Positions 3,915-42,300 of a stretch of DNA of 64,000 nt are shown here, piece by piece. A program made the translations under genes and the position numbers. The notes under the pieces were generated by a model. The model saw only the letters and a list, made by a program, of their open reading frames with translations, had not been told where the DNA came from and ran no database searches. Where the stretch lies: the NCBI GenBank assembly GCA_937922045.1, contig CAKZXA010000032.1:71710-135709 (forward strand), given 5' to 3'. Source of the DNA: an uncultured Acidimicrobiales bacterium. GTDB lineage: Bacteria > Actinomycetota > Acidimicrobiia > Acidimicrobiales > SZUA-35. Numbering within the stretch: the first letter of the stretch is position 1; the number at the start of each line of letters is the position of its first letter.

Positions 3915-5129
3915 ATGAGCGAATTTTCTCTTGAGCTTTCCGAAGATCAGCTGCAACTCCAGAAATGGGTGCACGACTTCGCCGAGAAGATCATCAGGCC
4001 AGCGGGCGAGGAGTGGGACCGGCGCGAAGAAACGCCATGGCCCATCATCGAAGAGGCGGCCAAGATTGGGCTCTACAGCTGGGAGTTCATGGCCGAGATG
4101 ATGATGAACGATCCATCGGGCCTCTCCATGCCGATCGCCTTGGAAGAGATGTTTTGGGGCGATGCAGGTATCGGTATGGCGATGATGGGCTCAGGTCTAG
4201 CCGCCGCAGGTATCGCGGCCTCTGGCACCTCCGAACAGGTAATGGAATGGGTACCTCTTTGCTATGGCGACGCCAGCGACGTCAAACTTGGGGCCTTCGC
4301 TGCCTCCGAGCCCGATGCTGGTTCCGACGTGTCGGCCTACCGCACTCGCGCCGTCTATGACGAGGGAACCGACGAATGGGTGTTGAACGGAACCAAGACA
4401 TGGATCACCAATGGTGGAATCGCCGCCATTCACGTCGTCGTTGCTGTTGTCGACCCCGACCTTGGGGTCAAGGGCCAAGCTAGTTTCGTCGTCCCACCGA
4501 ACACACCGGGCCTGTCCCAAGGCCAGAAGTTCTCGAAGCATGGCATCCGAGCCAGCCACACCGCCGAGGTCGTACTCGACGATGTACGTGTCCCCGGTCG
4601 ATGCCTGCTCGGCGGCAAGGAAAAACTCGACGAACGCCTCGCGCGTGTGCGTGAGGGTGCGCCAAGCAATTCACAGGCCGCCATGCAGACCTTCGAAGCC
4701 ACCCGCCCGGCCGTAGCGGCCCAAGCTGTTGGTATCGCCCGCGCTGCCTATGAATATTCGCTGGATTATGCCAAGGAACGTCGGGCCTTCGGCAAGGCCA
4801 TTATCGAGAACCAATCGATCGCCTTCATGCTGGCCGACATGGCAACCGAGATCGACGCCGCTCGTCTACTAACCCACCGCGCCGCCTGGTTGGGCAAGCA
4901 GCGCAAGTTCAAGAACGCTGAGGGCTCCATGGCCAAGCTGAAAGCTGGTCGGGTCGCTGTTTGGTCCACCGAGAGGGCAATGCAAATTCTTGGCGGCTAC
5001 GGCTATGTAAGCGAGTACCCGGTCGAGCGCTGGCACCGAGATTCAAAGATCTACGACATCTTCGAAGGCACCGAACAGATCCAGCAGCTCGTCATCGCCC
5101 GCTCAATTAGTGGTCTGCGTATCGAGTAG
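3915..5129 (+). CDS. Acyl-CoA dehydrogenase, 3' end rebuilt by the integrated island
   Basis: A 404-residue FAD-dependent acyl-CoA dehydrogenase that introduces the alpha-beta double bond in an acyl-CoA and passes electrons to electron-transfer flavoprotein; etfBA are encoded at 44.4-46.2 kb. The family's three parts are visible: an N-terminal helical domain (1-120), a middle beta domain with NGTKTWITNGG (about 160), and a C-terminal helical domain with RRAFGKAI and LGGYGYVSEYPVERWHRD. The catalytic Glu is probably that of IFEGTEQIQ near residue 382, by analogy with the EGT motif of the family. The last 24 codons lie inside a 76-bp sequence repeated at 8046-8121, so this 3' end comes from an insertion event. 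The stop is TAG here but TAA in the distal copy. The chain substrate is unknown; the adjacent acyl-CoA synthetase suggests a shared pathway. Confidence 0.92.
   Translation: MSEFSLELSEDQLQLQKWVHDFAEKIIRPAGEEWDRREETPWPIIEEAAKIGLYSWEFMAEMMMNDPSGLSMPIALEEMFWGDAGIGMAMMGSGLAAAGIAASGTSEQVMEWVPLCYGDASDVKLGAFAASEPDAGSDVSAYRTRAVYDEGTDEWVLNGTKTWITNGGIAAIHVVVAVVDPDLGVKGQASFVVPPNTPGLSQGQKFSKHGIRASHTAEVVLDDVRVPGRCLLGGKEKLDERLARVREGAPSNSQAAMQTFEATRPAVAAQAVGIARAAYEYSLDYAKERRAFGKAIIENQSIAFMLADMATEIDAARLLTHRAAWLGKQRKFKNAEGSMAKLKAGRVAVWSTERAMQILGGYGYVSEYPVERWHRDSKIYDIFEGTEQIQQLVIARSISGLRIE
5053..5128 (+). repeat. attL-like core, left 76-bp direct repeat
   Basis: Identical over 76 bp to 8046-8121. It encodes the last 24 residues of the dehydrogenase and the first two bases of its stop codon. 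The base after it is G here (TAG) and G after an extra A in the right copy (TAA). Confidence 0.9.
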
Positions 5130-36963: not shown

Positions 36964-38112
36964 GTGACCAACCAGTCGGTAACCGAAGACGTCGTACGAG
37001 AAGCTCTTCGGCCGGTTCAAGACCCCGAACTCAACCGGAGCATCGTGGATCTTGGCATGGTGCGCTCGATCGGGATTGCGCTACCTCACGTTACGGTCGC
37101 CATCGATTTGACGATCGCCGGGTGCCCCCTACGAGCCGAAATCGATCGTCGAGTGCGAGATGCGGTGGTCGCCCTCGATGGCGTCGATGACATGACGCTC
37201 GAATTCGGCGTCATGACCGACGAACAGCGTGAAACCTTGCGTCGGCAACTCCACGGTGATCCTGGCGCCACCGCCGGATCTCAGCCGGGTCACGGCCACG
37301 CCGAAGGGCGGGCCATCCCGTTCGCCGATGCCGACAATCGCACACGTGTCCTGCTGGTGGCTTCCGGCAAGGGCGGCGTTGGCAAAAGCTCGGTGACCAC
37401 CAACCTCGCCGTCGCTCTGGCGGCCAGAGGCAAGAAGGTGGCGGTTGTCGATGCCGATGTGTGGGGATTCTCGATTCCGCGAATGCTCGGTGTCAACCGC
37501 CCGCCGGTCGTGATCGATGAGATGATCGTTCCCCCCGAATCGCATGGTGTTCGCTGCATCTCGATGGGTTTCTTTGTCGACGAGAACCAGCCCGTAATCT
37601 GGCGTGGTCCGATGTTGCACAAGGCCCTCGAACAGTTCTTGACCGACGTCTATTGGGATGAGCCCGACTTCTTGATCGTGGATCTCCCTCCGGGCACAGG
37701 CGACATCGCTCTATCCCTCAGCCAGTTCCTTCCCCGCTCCGAACTGCTCGTCGTGACGACACCGCAGCCGGCAGCCCAGAAGGTGGCGCAGCGCGCCGCC
37801 TACATGGCCCACAAGGTGCACATCACCGTCTCAGGCGTTATCGAGAACATGAGCTGGTTTACCGGCGACGACGGCAAGCGCTACGAGCTCTTCGGAGCCG
37901 GCGGCGGGCAAACCCTAGCCGACGAGCTTGAGGTTCCGCTTCTGGCCCAGATCCCTCTGGTCGCTAAGTTGCGCGAAGGCGGCGACACCGGAATGCCTAT
38001 CGCGATCGACACCGAGTCTGAAGCAGGCGCCGTGTTCGCTGCTTTGGCCGAGACGGTCGACGTGGACCTGGCCCCCAAGAAGCGCTATCGATCTGAACTG
38101 AAAATCAACTGA
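36964..38112 (+). CDS. Mrp/ApbC-type iron-sulfur carrier ATPase
   Basis: 382 residues from GTG 36964, with GAGGAG nine bases upstream. An N-terminal MIP18/DUF59 domain (VQDPELNRSIVDLGMV) is followed by a MinD-like P-loop ATPase: LLVASGKGGVGKSSVTTNLA near 130, VVDADVWGFSIPRMLG and DLPPGTGD. The protein carries or assembles Fe-S clusters onto apo-targets. The CxxC pair that binds the shared cluster in E. coli ApbC is absent around NMSWFTGDDGKRYELFG, which I believe is usual for actinobacterial members. Divergent from the SufR-like regulator. Confidence 0.92.
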   Translation: MTNQSVTEDVVREALRPVQDPELNRSIVDLGMVRSIGIALPHVTVAIDLTIAGCPLRAEIDRRVRDAVVALDGVDDMTLEFGVMTDEQRETLRRQLHGDPGATAGSQPGHGHAEGRAIPFADADNRTRVLLVASGKGGVGKSSVTTNLAVALAARGKKVAVVDADVWGFSIPRMLGVNRPPVVIDEMIVPPESHGVRCISMGFFVDENQPVIWRGPMLHKALEQFLTDVYWDEPDFLIVDLPPGTGDIALSLSQFLPRSELLVVTTPQPAAQKVAQRAAYMAHKVHITVSGVIENMSWFTGDDGKRYELFGAGGGQTLADELEVPLLAQIPLVAKLREGGDTGMPIAIDTESEAGAVFAALAETVDVDLAPKKRYRSELKIN

Positions 38113-38190
38113 CGCAGCCAGCGTGGCGCCGCCTTGGCACCTCTCACGAACTTTCCAGGCTGAAGTAACCGTAGAAGGCTTCGCGAAGGC

Positions 38191-38196
38191 TAGGTT
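38191..38196 (+). promoter_or_regulatory. -10 box for leaderless DUF3107 gene
   Basis: TAGGTT, seven bases, ATG 38204. The same hexamer and spacing as for the DUF1028 gene. It rules out the ORF-track start at 38123. Confidence 0.55.
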
Positions 38197-38203
38197 TGGG
38201 TAC

Positions 38204-38437
38204 ATGGAGATCCGCATCGGGATTGCTGAGACGTCGCAGGTCATTGAGATCGAGATGGACGACGGCACTGACCTTAAAGACGTGAAGGCCAAGATTGAGG
38301 CCGCCCTGGGCGGCAAGGTTGACGTGGTCTGGTTCGAAGATCGCAAGCAACGTCAGATAGCGGTGCCTGCACCTCGGATCTCTTTCGTCGAGGTCAACCC
38401 GAGCGAGGCTGAACGCAAGATAGGGTTCGGCGCCTAG
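38204..38437 (+). CDS. DUF3107 protein
   Basis: 77 residues. MEIRIGIAETSQVIEIEMDD and the final AERKIGFGA are hallmarks of DUF3107, an actinobacteria-specific small protein (Rv3208A/TB9.4 in Mycobacterium). Function not established. The compact beta-alpha pattern (ALGGKVDVVWFEDRKQRQIAVP) suggests a single small domain. It precedes the Get3-like pair by 18 bp and may be cotranscribed. Confidence 0.9.
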   Translation: MEIRIGIAETSQVIEIEMDDGTDLKDVKAKIEAALGGKVDVVWFEDRKQRQIAVPAPRISFVEVNPSEAERKIGFGA

Positions 38438-38442
38438 TCGGC

Positions 38443-38460
38443 GCCACGCCACAGCGTGGC
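38443..38460 (+). promoter_or_regulatory. Hairpin that encloses the next start codon
   Basis: GCCACG, six bases, CGTGGC. The GTG start of the following gene (38456-38458) lies inside the right arm; the arms can extend outward to GTCGG/CCGAC with a two-base bulge. In mRNA this would hide the start codon unless ribosomes from DUF3107, whose stop ends five bases before the hairpin, open it. Confidence 0.4.
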
Positions 38461-39307
38461 CGACCGAGCCCGCCTCCGATTCATTGCTGGCAAGGGCGGA
38501 GTTGGCCGGACGGCCGTCGCCCGAGCGCTGGCGGCCAAGGCTGCGGCCGGAGGAGCTCGTACGCTCCTCATCGACGCCGGCCCCACAGCGGTTGGCTCAA
38601 AGGCCGCCGATAGGGGCGCAGCTGAAGAAGGCGCGTCGTCCGACTATTCGTTCCTTCGACTCTCCGCTCAAGACTCTGTCGACGAGTATCTCAAACGCTC
38701 TCTGCGCCTGCCGGTTCGCCCTGCCAGGCTTAAGCCGATGGCGGCGATCTTCAACTATGTCGCCATCGCCGCTCCCGGTGTTCGCGAGATTCTGACGATA
38801 GGCAAGATCGGTGAAGAGGTGCGCAGCGGTGGATGGGACGAGGTGATCGTCGATGCGCCGGCCTCTGGCCACCTCGTCGAGCTCTTGAACGCTCCTGACG
38901 AGTTGCTGACCCTGGTCGGCGGCGCTGGCCCACTTGCAGCCGAATCGCGATGGTTGGGCGAGCTGCTGGCTGAAGAAATGACCTCGATCTGGGTTGTTGC
39001 TCTGCCCGAACCGATCGTGGTCGCTGAGACGATTGATTTGATGAATCGGCTCGGCGATAGTGATGTCGCGGTCGAGGCTGTCGTGATCAATCGTATGCCG
39101 CCATCCGTCGGCGCTGCCGGTCGGGTCGAGGTGGAACAGAGCCGAAGAAGCGGTGACGACTCCGCTGTACTGGCTCGGCTTGCCATCGACATGGACGATT
39201 GGGCCAGACCTTGTGCTGCTGCTCTCGAAGCGATGGACACCGACATCGACATCTACCGATTGCCGTGGGCGATCGATGTGGCCGCCGAGCTTGAGGCGGT
39301 GCTTTGA
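38456..39307 (+). CDS. ArsA/Get3-like ATPase, first subunit (BagA-like)
   Basis: 283 residues from GTG 38456. The deviant P-loop reads FIAGKGGVGRTAVARALA: the signature Lys (GK) is present but the second, phosphate-binding Lys is replaced by Arg. Switch-II-like VIVDAPASGHLVELLNAP follows near 140. The gene overlaps its partner at 39304 (TTGA). In Mycobacterium the equivalent pair is Rv3679/Rv3680 (described as the Get3-like BagA/BagB complex). Its role is not settled; ArsA/Get3 relatives move arsenite or tail-anchored proteins. The nearby WhiB gene also matches the mycobacterial locus. Family is clear; the lysine loss suggests dependence on the partner for ATP hydrolysis. Confidence 0.85.
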   Translation: MADRARLRFIAGKGGVGRTAVARALAAKAAAGGARTLLIDAGPTAVGSKAADRGAAEEGASSDYSFLRLSAQDSVDEYLKRSLRLPVRPARLKPMAAIFNYVAIAAPGVREILTIGKIGEEVRSGGWDEVIVDAPASGHLVELLNAPDELLTLVGGAGPLAAESRWLGELLAEEMTSIWVVALPEPIVVAETIDLMNRLGDSDVAVEAVVINRMPPSVGAAGRVEVEQSRRSGDDSAVLARLAIDMDDWARPCAAALEAMDTDIDIYRLPWAIDVAAELEAVL

Positions 39308-40368
39308 ACCCGAGCCAGGATCGAGCGGTCGATGATCTCTTGGCCACCTCTCGTCTTATCGTAGCCGTCGGTACCGGCGGCGTCGGAAAGACGACGACCG
39401 CAGCCGCTCTGGCGGTGCGAGCCGCCTACGCCGGTCGTCGTGTCCTCGTCTTTACGGTCGACCCTGCTCGTCGGCTGGCCGATGCGCTCGCCGTGTCATC
39501 GCTCCCGGCCGATCCTGCCCTGGTTTCGCTCGAGGGCGCCTCGGGACGCCTGTGGGCGATGATGGCAGACACAAGCCTTAGTTGGGACCGGCTGGTTGAA
39601 CGCTGTTCGCCTGATCGCGATCTCGCCGATGAGCTCCTGGCGAACCCCCTCTATCGTTCACTAACCAAGAACTTTGTCCAGAGCCACGACTACATCGCTC
39701 TGGATCATCTGTGTGAATTTTCAGCCGATGACCGATTCGACCTCGTCATCGTTGACACCCCGCCGTCGGGCCACGTGCTCGACTTACTCGATGCGCCTGG
39801 CCGAATGGTCGAGTTCTTCAACAGCCGTCTACTCGATGTTCTGACCGGAGGACGGCTCGGGCGCAGCGTTGGCCAGTTTGCGGCACAACCCTTCCTTCAG
39901 CTTGCGCGCCGGATCCTAGGAACCGACTTTCTGGCCCAGGTTTCCCGTCTCTTTACCCTGCTCCGAGGGTTGGGTCCGGCGTTCGGCGATCGCGCCGCCC
40001 TGGTCGAAGATATTCTGGCCCGGCCAGAGACCTCGTTTGTAGCGGTCACCACCACCTCGCCCCGGCAGCGAATCGAACATGACGACCTGGTGGGCGAGCT
40101 GGCCAAACGGTCAATCGAGCTCGACCTCCTGGTTTTGAACCGGTCGCTGCGAGCGGTTCTCGACCCGACGGATTCACCCGGCGTGCCCGGTTCGGCCGAT
40201 GGTTCGAACCTTGATTTCGTCGACGGTGAGTTGGCCGCCGCTGTGCGGCGATGGCGTCAACTTGTCGACAACGAGGTTCCGATCAGTACGGAGCAGCCGT
40301 CGGTCGCCGTGGCGTTGAATCCGGCTGGTTTCGACGGGATCGATGGTCTCCGCTCGTTCTTCGTTTGA
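39304..40368 (+). CDS. ArsA/Get3-like ATPase, second subunit (BagB-like)
   Basis: 354 residues from TTG 39304, overlapping the previous stop. The P-loop reads AVGTGGVGKTTTAAALA: the phosphate-binding Lys is present but the signature Lys is Thr, the mirror image of the first subunit. The switch-I-like TVDPARRLADAL and switch-II-like VDTPPSGHVLDLLDAP are well kept. A central helical region (LQLARRILGTDFLAQVSRLF) could be a client-binding part. In Rv3680 the signature Lys is also missing, by my recollection. With the first subunit it is predicted to form a heterodimer holding one complete nucleotide site. Confidence 0.87.
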   Translation: MNPSQDRAVDDLLATSRLIVAVGTGGVGKTTTAAALAVRAAYAGRRVLVFTVDPARRLADALAVSSLPADPALVSLEGASGRLWAMMADTSLSWDRLVERCSPDRDLADELLANPLYRSLTKNFVQSHDYIALDHLCEFSADDRFDLVIVDTPPSGHVLDLLDAPGRMVEFFNSRLLDVLTGGRLGRSVGQFAAQPFLQLARRILGTDFLAQVSRLFTLLRGLGPAFGDRAALVEDILARPETSFVAVTTTSPRQRIEHDDLVGELAKRSIELDLLVLNRSLRAVLDPTDSPGVPGSADGSNLDFVDGELAAAVRRWRQLVDNEVPISTEQPSVAVALNPAGFDGIDGLRSFFV

Positions 40369-40377
40369 TCCCACCGC

Positions 40378-40383
40378 TACTGT
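40378..40383 (+). promoter_or_regulatory. -10 box for leaderless histidine kinase gene
   Basis: TACTGT, six bases, ATG 40390, located 10-15 bp after the second ATPase stop. Confidence 0.45.
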
Positions 40384-40389
40384 TCAGGC

Positions 40390-41865
40390 ATGGCCTCGAC
40401 CAACGATCTCGCACGGCTCTACCTTGATGTCGATACAGCGGGCCGACACCACCTACGGCGGCTCGTCGGGTCGTGGGCGCCTCTCGCTGATCTCAGCTTT
40501 TCCGACCTCCTGTTGTGGGGAGCGGTGAAGGACGATTCCAACGAGTTGATCGTGATTGGCCAGATACGTCCAACGACGGCCCAGACCCTCTACCTCGATG
40601 ACCAGGTTGGCCAACGTCACACGATGGACGATCAGCGACTCGTGGCCAAGGTGCTGGCCACCGGGGAACCCCACCAAGACGAGGTTGATCGCCATCGACG
40701 TTCGGTGCCGGTCCGGGTCCGGATTCAGGCTATCCCGGTTCGTCACGACGGTCAGCTGATAGCCGTGCTCACCGGCGACACCTCGGTCAAGGAAGAGTCG
40801 CAGACCAGTGAGCTTGAGCTCGCCTACCTGGGGGTCTTTCGGCGCCTCGCGGTGATGCTGGCCGAAGGCATGTTTCCCTTCCCCTTCGAGGACGCGGTGA
40901 CTGAAGAGTCGCCCCGGGTCGGCGATGGTGCCCTAATCCTGGATGGCAATGGCCGCGTGGTTTACTCGTCGCCCAATGCTGTTTCGGCGCTTCACCGCCT
41001 CGGGTACCACGGCCGAATCAACGATCATCTGCTCAGCGACATCGGGTTCGACCCTGACGTGGTGGAGAGTTCGTATCGCTTGAAGGTCCCCGTCGTCGAC
41101 GAGCTGGAACGAGGAGAGCGAGCCACGATCCTGTCTCGCATCGTGCCCTTGATCGAGCAGCAGAACGTAACCGGCGCACTCGTGCTCCTACGCGACGTGT
41201 CGGATGTGCGCCGTCGAGACCGGATGCTGGTGTCGATGGATACGACGATGAGAGAGATCCACCATCGGGTCAAGAACAATCTGCAAACCGTTTCGTCCTT
41301 GCTTCGTATTCAGGGACGCAGGCTCGAATCACCGGAGGCCAAACTGGCGATCGACGAGTCGGTACGCCGCATCGCCTCAATCGCCGTGGTCCACGAGATG
41401 TTGGCCAACAGTGGCGGTGACGAGGTGCAGTTTCGAGATGTGCTACAGCCGATCGTGACGATGGCGGCCACCACCTTGGTGTCGGCCGACAGGCCGGTGG
41501 AGTTTCGACTTGTGGGGGACGGGCCAACCCTTATCTCGTCGAAGGCGTCGTCACTGGCCGTTGTCGTCTCTGAACTTCTCCAGAACGCCGTTGAGCATGG
41601 CTATCCCACGGGAGGCGGTGGCGGAACGGTGACCGTTGAGCTGTTCACGTCTTCCACCGAGCTACAAGTGCGCGTGCACGATGACGGCGTTGGTGTTGAG
41701 CCTGGGTTCGACGCGTCGGCGTCGCCCGGTCTCGGGTTGACGATCATCTCATCGCTCGTATCCGGCGAGTTGGGAGGAGAACTCAAGATCCGGCCAGCCA
41801 CACCACCTCAACGAGGCACGCTGGCCCAGGTGACCGTGCAGCTGGGCGCGCTCGACAATGACTAG
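40390..41865 (+). CDS. Sensor histidine kinase, PdtaS-like (HisKA_2)
   Basis: 491 residues, no membrane helix, so cytosolic. The N-terminal 270 residues contain a GAF-like region and a PAS-like region (VGDGALILDGNGRVVYSSPNAVSAL near 180). The phospho-accepting HisKA_2 box is MREIHHRVKNNLQTVSSLL near 282, and the ATPase domain has ELLQNAVEHGYP, HDDGVGVEPGF and PGLGLTIISSLV. This is the architecture of mycobacterial PdtaS, which signals to the ANTAR-domain regulator PdtaR to control antitermination. No PdtaR gene is adjacent, so an orphan partnership is likely. Confidence 0.88.
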   Translation: MASTNDLARLYLDVDTAGRHHLRRLVGSWAPLADLSFSDLLLWGAVKDDSNELIVIGQIRPTTAQTLYLDDQVGQRHTMDDQRLVAKVLATGEPHQDEVDRHRRSVPVRVRIQAIPVRHDGQLIAVLTGDTSVKEESQTSELELAYLGVFRRLAVMLAEGMFPFPFEDAVTEESPRVGDGALILDGNGRVVYSSPNAVSALHRLGYHGRINDHLLSDIGFDPDVVESSYRLKVPVVDELERGERATILSRIVPLIEQQNVTGALVLLRDVSDVRRRDRMLVSMDTTMREIHHRVKNNLQTVSSLLRIQGRRLESPEAKLAIDESVRRIASIAVVHEMLANSGGDEVQFRDVLQPIVTMAATTLVSADRPVEFRLVGDGPTLISSKASSLAVVVSELLQNAVEHGYPTGGGGGTVTVELFTSSTELQVRVHDDGVGVEPGFDASASPGLGLTIISSLVSGELGGELKIRPATPPQRGTLAQVTVQLGALDND

Positions 41866-41919
41866 CGTCGCGATGGTTTGGCGTATGGTCTAGCTGGCCT
41901 GGGCGGCAGGCTGCGGCGG

Positions 41920-42300
41920 CTAGCGCCGAAGATAGTTCCGGCGCAACGTTCGGCGTTCCTCTTCAGAGGTTGCTCCCCAGACACCGGAGTCCTGATTGGT
42001 CAGGAGGGCGAACTCAAGGCAAGGCTCCTGGGCGGGGCATTGCCGGCACACATCCTTTGCATCGGCGATCTGATCAACCGCAAGACCTGTCGTCCCCACG
42101 GGGAAGAAGAGTTCTGGGCTGGTGCCGCGGCACGAAGCCGTGGCTCGCCATGACAGATCAGGCTCGTAACTACCGCGTTTCGCGGCGGCCTGTTGAGCGA
42201 CTTGTTCGAAGTAGGCGAATTCTGCTGATGGTGACGGTGCACTAGCATCCAAGATGCTGCCGTCTACAACCGAATCCGTCGGTAAACCTGTGACTTTCAC
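41920..42300 (-). CDS. WhiB-family Fe-S transcription factor
   Basis: 126 residues from GTG 42300, with GGGAGG five bases before it. The four cluster cysteines are ATASCRGT, and VCRQCPAQEPC with C-x2-C-x5-C spacing; the turn GVWGATSEEER and basic tail RRTLRRNYLRR follow. WhiB proteins bind a redox- and NO-sensitive [4Fe-4S] cluster and act with the main sigma factor. An N-terminal extension of 45 residues (FAYFEQVAQQAAAKRG) is present. Position after the BagA/BagB-like pair suggests a WhiB4-type protein by synteny; sequence alone does not settle the subfamily. Confidence 0.92.
   Translation of the reverse strand: MKVTGLPTDSVVDGSILDASAPSPSAEFAYFEQVAQQAAAKRGSYEPDLSWRATASCRGTSPELFFPVGTTGLAVDQIADAKDVCRQCPAQEPCLEFALLTNQDSGVWGATSEEERRTLRRNYLRR

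Follow-up and report, generated by a model that had tools for sequence, protein, structure and literature searches.

Organization of the locus

The window, i.e. the whole stretch of 64 000 nucleotides that was analysed, contains two adjacent genes, here called A and B, that encode Get3-like subunits (Table 1). The stop of A and the start of B share four bases, an arrangement consistent with coupled translation of the two subunits. The original prediction was built on the P-loop motifs GKGGVGRT in A and GTGGVGKT in B, and both are confirmed in the sequence: A has kept the signature lysine and has an arginine at the position of the Walker lysine, and B shows the reverse.

Assignment to the Get3 fold is supported at several levels. 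Both subunits score above the gathering cut-off (24.3 bits) of the Pfam family ArsA_ATPase (PF02374), with 67.7 bits for A and 80.8 bits for B. Their closest solved relatives by sequence are the two chains of PDB entry 6bs3, namely 6bs3_A (Rv3679) for A (6.5e-18) and 6bs3_B (Rv3680) for B (3.8e-44). AlphaFold2 monomer models (pLDDT 83 for A and 81 for B) have a Get3-like fold in both cases, and the best Foldseek matches are again 6bs3_A for A (TMq 0.80) and 6bs3_B for B (TMq 0.72), followed by Get3/TRC40 structures. Since the Pfam, sequence and fold matches agree, the resemblance of the motifs to those of the Get3 fold is not due to chance. In A, the catalytic-acid position of switch I is occupied by a glycine, in what is the weakest part of both the alignment and the model (pLDDT <50 at residues 45–60). 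The stretch from the Mrp-type ATPase through DUF3107, the ATPase pair and the PdtaS-type kinase to WhiB (36964–42300) is a block that is for the most part conserved throughout the order.

Table 1. Genes and sequence features of the A–B locus (coordinates of the window)
Feature	Coordinates	Strand	Description and basis
Mrp/ApbC-type Fe–S carrier ATPase (upstream neighbour)	36964..38112	+	Both lysines; Pfam/NCBIfam; conserved synteny
DUF3107 protein, directly upstream of A	38123..38437	+	PF11305; synteny, adjoins type I pairs in compared loci
Gene A, Get3-like subunit A	38456..39307	+	ORF, GTG start, 283 aa; coding 38456–39304, stop reaching 39307; candidate pseudo-ATPase donating the signature Lys
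A, P-loop GKGGVGRT	38489..38512	+	Gly12 to Thr19; sequence, column counts in relatives
A, signature lysine	38492..38494	+	Lys13, kept
A, Walker lysine position	38507..38509	+	Arg18, codon CGG
A, switch I region	38573..38581	+	Asp40-Ala41-Gly42; catalytic-acid position = Gly42, no acid; alignment with relatives
A, switch II DAPASGH	38852..38872	+	Asp133 to His139, kept; Asp133 and His139 in 24/24 Arg rows
A, Asn212	39089..39091	+	Kept; corresponds to the Asn in strand β7 of Get3 that selects adenine; 23/24 Arg rows; PMC10248533
A stop/B start overlap	39304..39307	+	4 bases, TTGA; sequence
Gene B, Get3-like subunit B	39304..40368	+	ORF, TTG start, 354 aa; candidate catalytic subunit
B, P-loop GTGGVGKT	39370..39393	+	Starts at Gly23; Thr24 replaces the signature Lys, Walker Lys29 kept, then Thr30; sequence
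B, switch I DPARR	39460..39474	+	Asp53 = catalytic aspartate position; invariant Asp in a 19-sequence alignment, Asp in 229/229 pairs
B, switch II DTPP	39754..39765	+	Asp151; invariant in alignment
PdtaS-type histidine kinase (downstream)	40390..41865	+	PF12282, HisKA_2; synteny
WhiB-type regulator (downstream)	41920..42300	-	PF02467; synteny

The one-site layout of A–B pairs

The Walker lysine is the main phosphate ligand of P-loop NTPases. In Get3-type dimers it points to the β-phosphate of its own subunit, the signature (intradimeric) lysine crosses to the nucleotide of the partner, the switch I Asp holds the attacking water in place and an Asn in strand β7 selects adenine (PMC10248533). 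Following this logic, the site of B would be complete, with Walker Lys29, Asp53 and Asp151 of its own and Lys13 supplied by A, and that of A would be incomplete.

To place the window pair among its relatives, A–B loci were taken from relatives of the window's genome, from the wider phylum and from named genomes of other phyla. This gave 229 adjacent A–B pairs from several phyla, found by profile HMMs and not by motif; the profiles were built from pairs first chosen by motif, and strongly aberrant pairs could thus be missed. In these pairs, B always has the Walker lysine (229/229), never the signature lysine (0/229) and always the switch I Asp, recognized by pattern in 228 pairs and read as VAVDPAR in the last one (L276). 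Conversely, the signature lysine of A is present in all 228 readable pairs, and the Walker position of A is occupied by Lys in 196, Arg in 30 and Ser in 2 of them. Short matches to the B profile that bear a signature lysine were discarded, as they proved to be pieces of A ORFs or to come from the single-gene homologue L093.

The one-complete-site layout is on these sequences a property of the whole A–B class, Lys-bearing A subunits included, because all pairs with Lys in A, among them Rv3679–Rv3680 of Mycobacterium tuberculosis, show it. This lopsided two-subunit design is old, widespread and already known in bacteria. Partnership in a 1:1 ratio is supported by natural head-to-tail fusions of A and B in a single ORF, of which eight were found in three groups: L056, L060, L061, L064 and L068 in the window's family, all belonging to a second type of pair (type II, see below), L264 and L277, and L281. 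The fused ORFs measure ∼670–770 aa from stop to stop.

Some loci depart from the simple A–B order. Two A genes, both with Lys, precede one B in a tandem A–A–B arrangement (L282/L175, G108:C33). Lone A genes without an adjoining B occur in L242 (G333:C24) and L237 (G183:C1), in genomes that also have a full A–B pair, and might provide alternative partners for the same B; the lone A of L242, from another actinobacterial family, bears Arg. In an uncultured Myxococcales genome (L084), an Arg-bearing A lies at 4001–4942, and the ∼4 kb flanking it in each direction contain no B-like gene.

Distribution and history of the arginine in A

The search within the window's family covered 39 genomes, of which 29 have the orthologous pair, designated type I. 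In the remaining 10, the type I pair was not found at a threshold of E 1e-25, where gaps in draft genomes may play a part; these are G004, G006, G008, G019, G022, G034, G061 and three genomes of g5, several of them having type II only. Among the 29 orthologues, the Walker position of A is Arg in 24 and Lys in five, the latter all from the window's own genus. Lys- and Arg-bearing orthologues share the gene block Mrp – DUF3107 – A – B – PdtaS kinase – WhiB – GDPD – DAG kinase – EtfB, and are therefore the same gene.

In all, five or more lineages have Arg at this position, in each case in A and in no case in B. Outside the family, it is found in families f31, f101 and f104 of the same class as the window's family, in two genomes of which one belongs to Bdellovibrionales and one to an uncultured proteobacterium (L083, L092), and in the Myxococcales genome and the lone A mentioned above. 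The Arg residues are encoded by CGN, AGA and AGG codons, and on the A tree the Walker position must have changed eight times or more. A search of the literature for KGGVGR gave no relevant result. The notion that the Arg results from a sequencing or assembly error, or from a change in one strain, deserves practically no credence and is already refuted by the relatives, given the same Arg in 24 family genomes and in other phyla with this variety of codons. A strain-specific Arg had been named in the original prediction as an outcome that would overturn it, and the family alignment excludes it.

Serine replaces the Walker lysine in two A subunits, L065 (G042) and L167 (G175), in the form GKGGVGSS with the switch I Asp kept; this is a different route of change from that of the Arg cases.

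The order of events within the type I family was examined on a tree of A plus B, built with the Walker column left out. By parsimony, two changes on this tree are enough, namely a gain of Arg at the root of the family and a return to Lys within the window's genus. Reversion from Arg to Lys within the genus is thus the simplest reading and a likely one; it is not certain, because forcing all Arg rows into one group costs 16 log units with an AU p of 0.06, which does not firmly reject a single Arg group. Overall, Arg in A is a recurrent and apparently reversible variation, exchangeable with Lys, and not the decisive step.

State of the nucleotide pocket in A

The switch I acid is absent in all 29 type I A subunits, Lys- and Arg-bearing alike. 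More broadly, Asp or Glu stands at this position in 162 of 198 Lys rows. By raw counts, the acid is missing in 29 of 31 Arg rows versus 36 of 198 Lys rows, an association that is not significant after tree correction. A link between Arg and the missing acid is accordingly not claimed, as the tree-corrected test does not establish it, and two Arg rows (L083 and L092) keep a Glu. Given that B offers no lysine in trans and that the switch I acid is lacking throughout the type I family, the site of A is on paper non-hydrolytic whatever the residue at position 18.

Whether such a site still holds a nucleotide is a separate question, on which the rest of the pocket is informative. Arg rows have retained the P-loop glycines, Asp133, His139 and Thr/Ser19 in 24 of 24 cases and Asn212 in 23 of 24. 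Further, a Get3d protein from Nostoc with Arg at the Walker position hydrolyses ATP with a kcat of 0.28/min, compared with 1.10 per min for its Lys-bearing homologue AtGet3d, the two having equal KM (PMC10248533). Because the pocket residues are conserved and the Nostoc enzyme is active, Arg is no proof of lost nucleotide binding, and the most likely state appears to be an A pocket that does not hydrolyse ATP but keeps a bound nucleotide.

In its strong form, the original prediction implies that Arg abolishes nucleotide binding by A, with one nucleotide per complex and an A pocket that either stays empty or is filled by the Arg side chain. The role of the Walker lysine as phosphate ligand and the fixation of Arg in 24 of 29 family members speak for this view, but Arg preserves the charge, the Nostoc enzyme has a KM like that of AtGet3d, Asp133, Thr/Ser19 and Asn212 are conserved in Arg rows, and Lys and Arg orthologues alternate within one genus; it is considered unlikely. 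The same low weight is given to neutral drift, according to which the A pocket is unused and the P-loop glycines and Lys13 are kept only to present the trans lysine. Repeated K/R exchange and the two Ser cases would fit such drift, yet Asn212, Asp133 and the Mg-ligand Ser/Thr, all expected to face the nucleotide of A, are almost invariant, and the rate of evolution of A is only a little above that of B (distance ratio of 1.13 in the family and 1.08 outside). At the opposite extreme, both sites might work, with Arg18 substituting for the Walker lysine and A hydrolysing slowly in the absence of the trans lysine. Nostoc Get3d, which combines Arg with a switch I Glu, provides a precedent (PMC10248533), but that protein keeps the signature lysine as well as the Glu, whereas type I A subunits have no switch I acid and are never offered a signature lysine by B, which makes activity at both sites very improbable.

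Proposed mechanism and implications

The preferred explanation is that A and B would form an asymmetric heterodimer of Get3/ArsA fold, of the Rv3679–Rv3680 (BagA–BagB) design. ATP would be bound and hydrolysed in the pocket of B through Lys29, Thr30, switch I Asp53 and switch II Asp151, the site being completed in trans by Lys13 of A. Without a signature lysine from B and without a switch I acid, the pocket of A would be unable to hydrolyse ATP, a state in which the Walker lysine may be exchanged for arginine. This exchange would have taken place close to the root of the window's family as well as in several further lineages, and part of the genus would, on the simplest reading, have regained Lys later. 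Conservation of the rest of the pocket makes it most likely that A continues to bind a nucleotide, whose phosphates Arg18 would contact and whose role would be structural or regulatory. As a whole, i.e. hydrolysis by B only, Lys13 of A acting in trans and an A pocket that is non-hydrolytic but holds a nucleotide, this explanation is judged probable.

Its parts differ in standing. The motif pattern, its conservation, the fusions and the synteny belong to the sequences themselves; for the window pair, heterodimerization, the choice of the hydrolysing site and the nucleotide in A are what we infer. A single hydrolytic site located on B is supported, and an obligate heterodimer of A and B is likely. 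Of the single complete site originally predicted, the combination of the B P-loop with the signature lysine of A is upheld by the pattern of the 229 pairs and by the eight fusions, but Arg as the cause of the arrangement is not supported. The single-site layout exists in Lys pairs too, Rv3679–Rv3680 among them, and five orthologues of the same genus and the same block have Lys. Moreover, type I A subunits have no switch I acid whether they bear Lys or Arg, and Nostoc Get3d is active with Arg (PMC10248533).

On a wider scale, A–B pairs can tentatively be regarded as a widespread kind of one-site machine whose A pocket was converted repeatedly into a non-hydrolytic site that holds a nucleotide or serves regulation, K-to-R being one visible step. 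In some genomes, an extra lone A (e.g. that of L242, also with Arg) may exchange with the usual A. Get3 and ArsA have two ATP sites. Bacteria provide many natural heterodimers in which one site is seemingly disabled, and syntenic Lys and Arg orthologues within one genus offer a ready comparison of what a second site is for, be it a structural nucleotide, regulation or nothing. From the present analysis it also follows that Arg in place of the Walker lysine should not be equated with a dead pocket.

Comparison with known systems

Eukaryotic and archaeal Get3 (TRC40) shares the fold and the intradimeric Walker A motif with the window pair, but it is a homodimer with both lysines and a CXXC zinc motif at the dimer interface. 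Scores against the Get3/TRC40 model TIGR00345 are 58.7 bits for A and 75.8 for B, below the threshold of 135. Neither A (one Cys) nor B (two Cys) has a CXXC motif, so the targeting role of Get3 cannot be assumed. In the arsenite-pump ATPase ArsA, two Get3-fold halves act as a pair within a single protein, as in the fused type II proteins; in ArsA, however, both halves have both lysines and a DPA switch I, whereas the window pair consists of separate genes, B having no signature lysine and A no Walker lysine. Scores against the ArsA model TIGR04291 are 37.1 for A and 57.1 for B, out of 650 required.

Nostoc Get3d (All4481; PDB 3igf and 8egk) resembles the A subunit of the window in its Arg at the Walker position and its Get3 fold, but it is encoded by one gene, has a signature lysine and a switch I Glu, and is an active ATPase (PMC10248533). 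A further comparison is the second A–B pair in the window's genome, the type II pair (G000:C103), with GKGGVGKT in A and GSGGVGKT in B and with orthologues order-wide. It has the same two-subunit design, but differs in that the Walker lysine is kept, the switch I acid is usually kept, the pair forms a separate clade and several family genomes encode it as a single fused ORF.

The closest solved relatives are the subunits of Rv3679–Rv3680 (BagA–BagB), for which the background is drawn from PDB titles (6bs3, 'ADP-bound bacterial Get3-like A and B', with the related entries 6bs4 and 6bs5) and a citing paper (PMC10597346). The lysine pattern given for the mycobacterial proteins in the original prediction is correct, Rv3679 having GKGGTGKS with both lysines and Rv3680 GAGGVGKT without the signature lysine. 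Rv3679 differs from the A subunit of the window in keeping the Walker lysine and in having a Glu at the switch I position. Scores against the BagA and BagB equivalog models (NCBIfam NF053622 and NF053621) are below the cut-offs (97.5 of 400 bits for A and 212.7 of 521 for B); in the A tree, Rv3679 best matches the clade L249–L270 and the A of the window lies in a DUF3107-linked clade; and the neighbours of the window pair (Mrp, DUF3107, PdtaS and WhiB) differ from those of BagA–BagB. On account of these scores, clades and neighbours, the window pair is to be seen as BagA–BagB-like but a different equivalog. In both systems A is directly followed by B, the signature lysine is present in A and not in B, B has the Walker lysine and the switch I Asp, and each subunit of the window has the corresponding mycobacterial chain as its best match in sequence and in fold.
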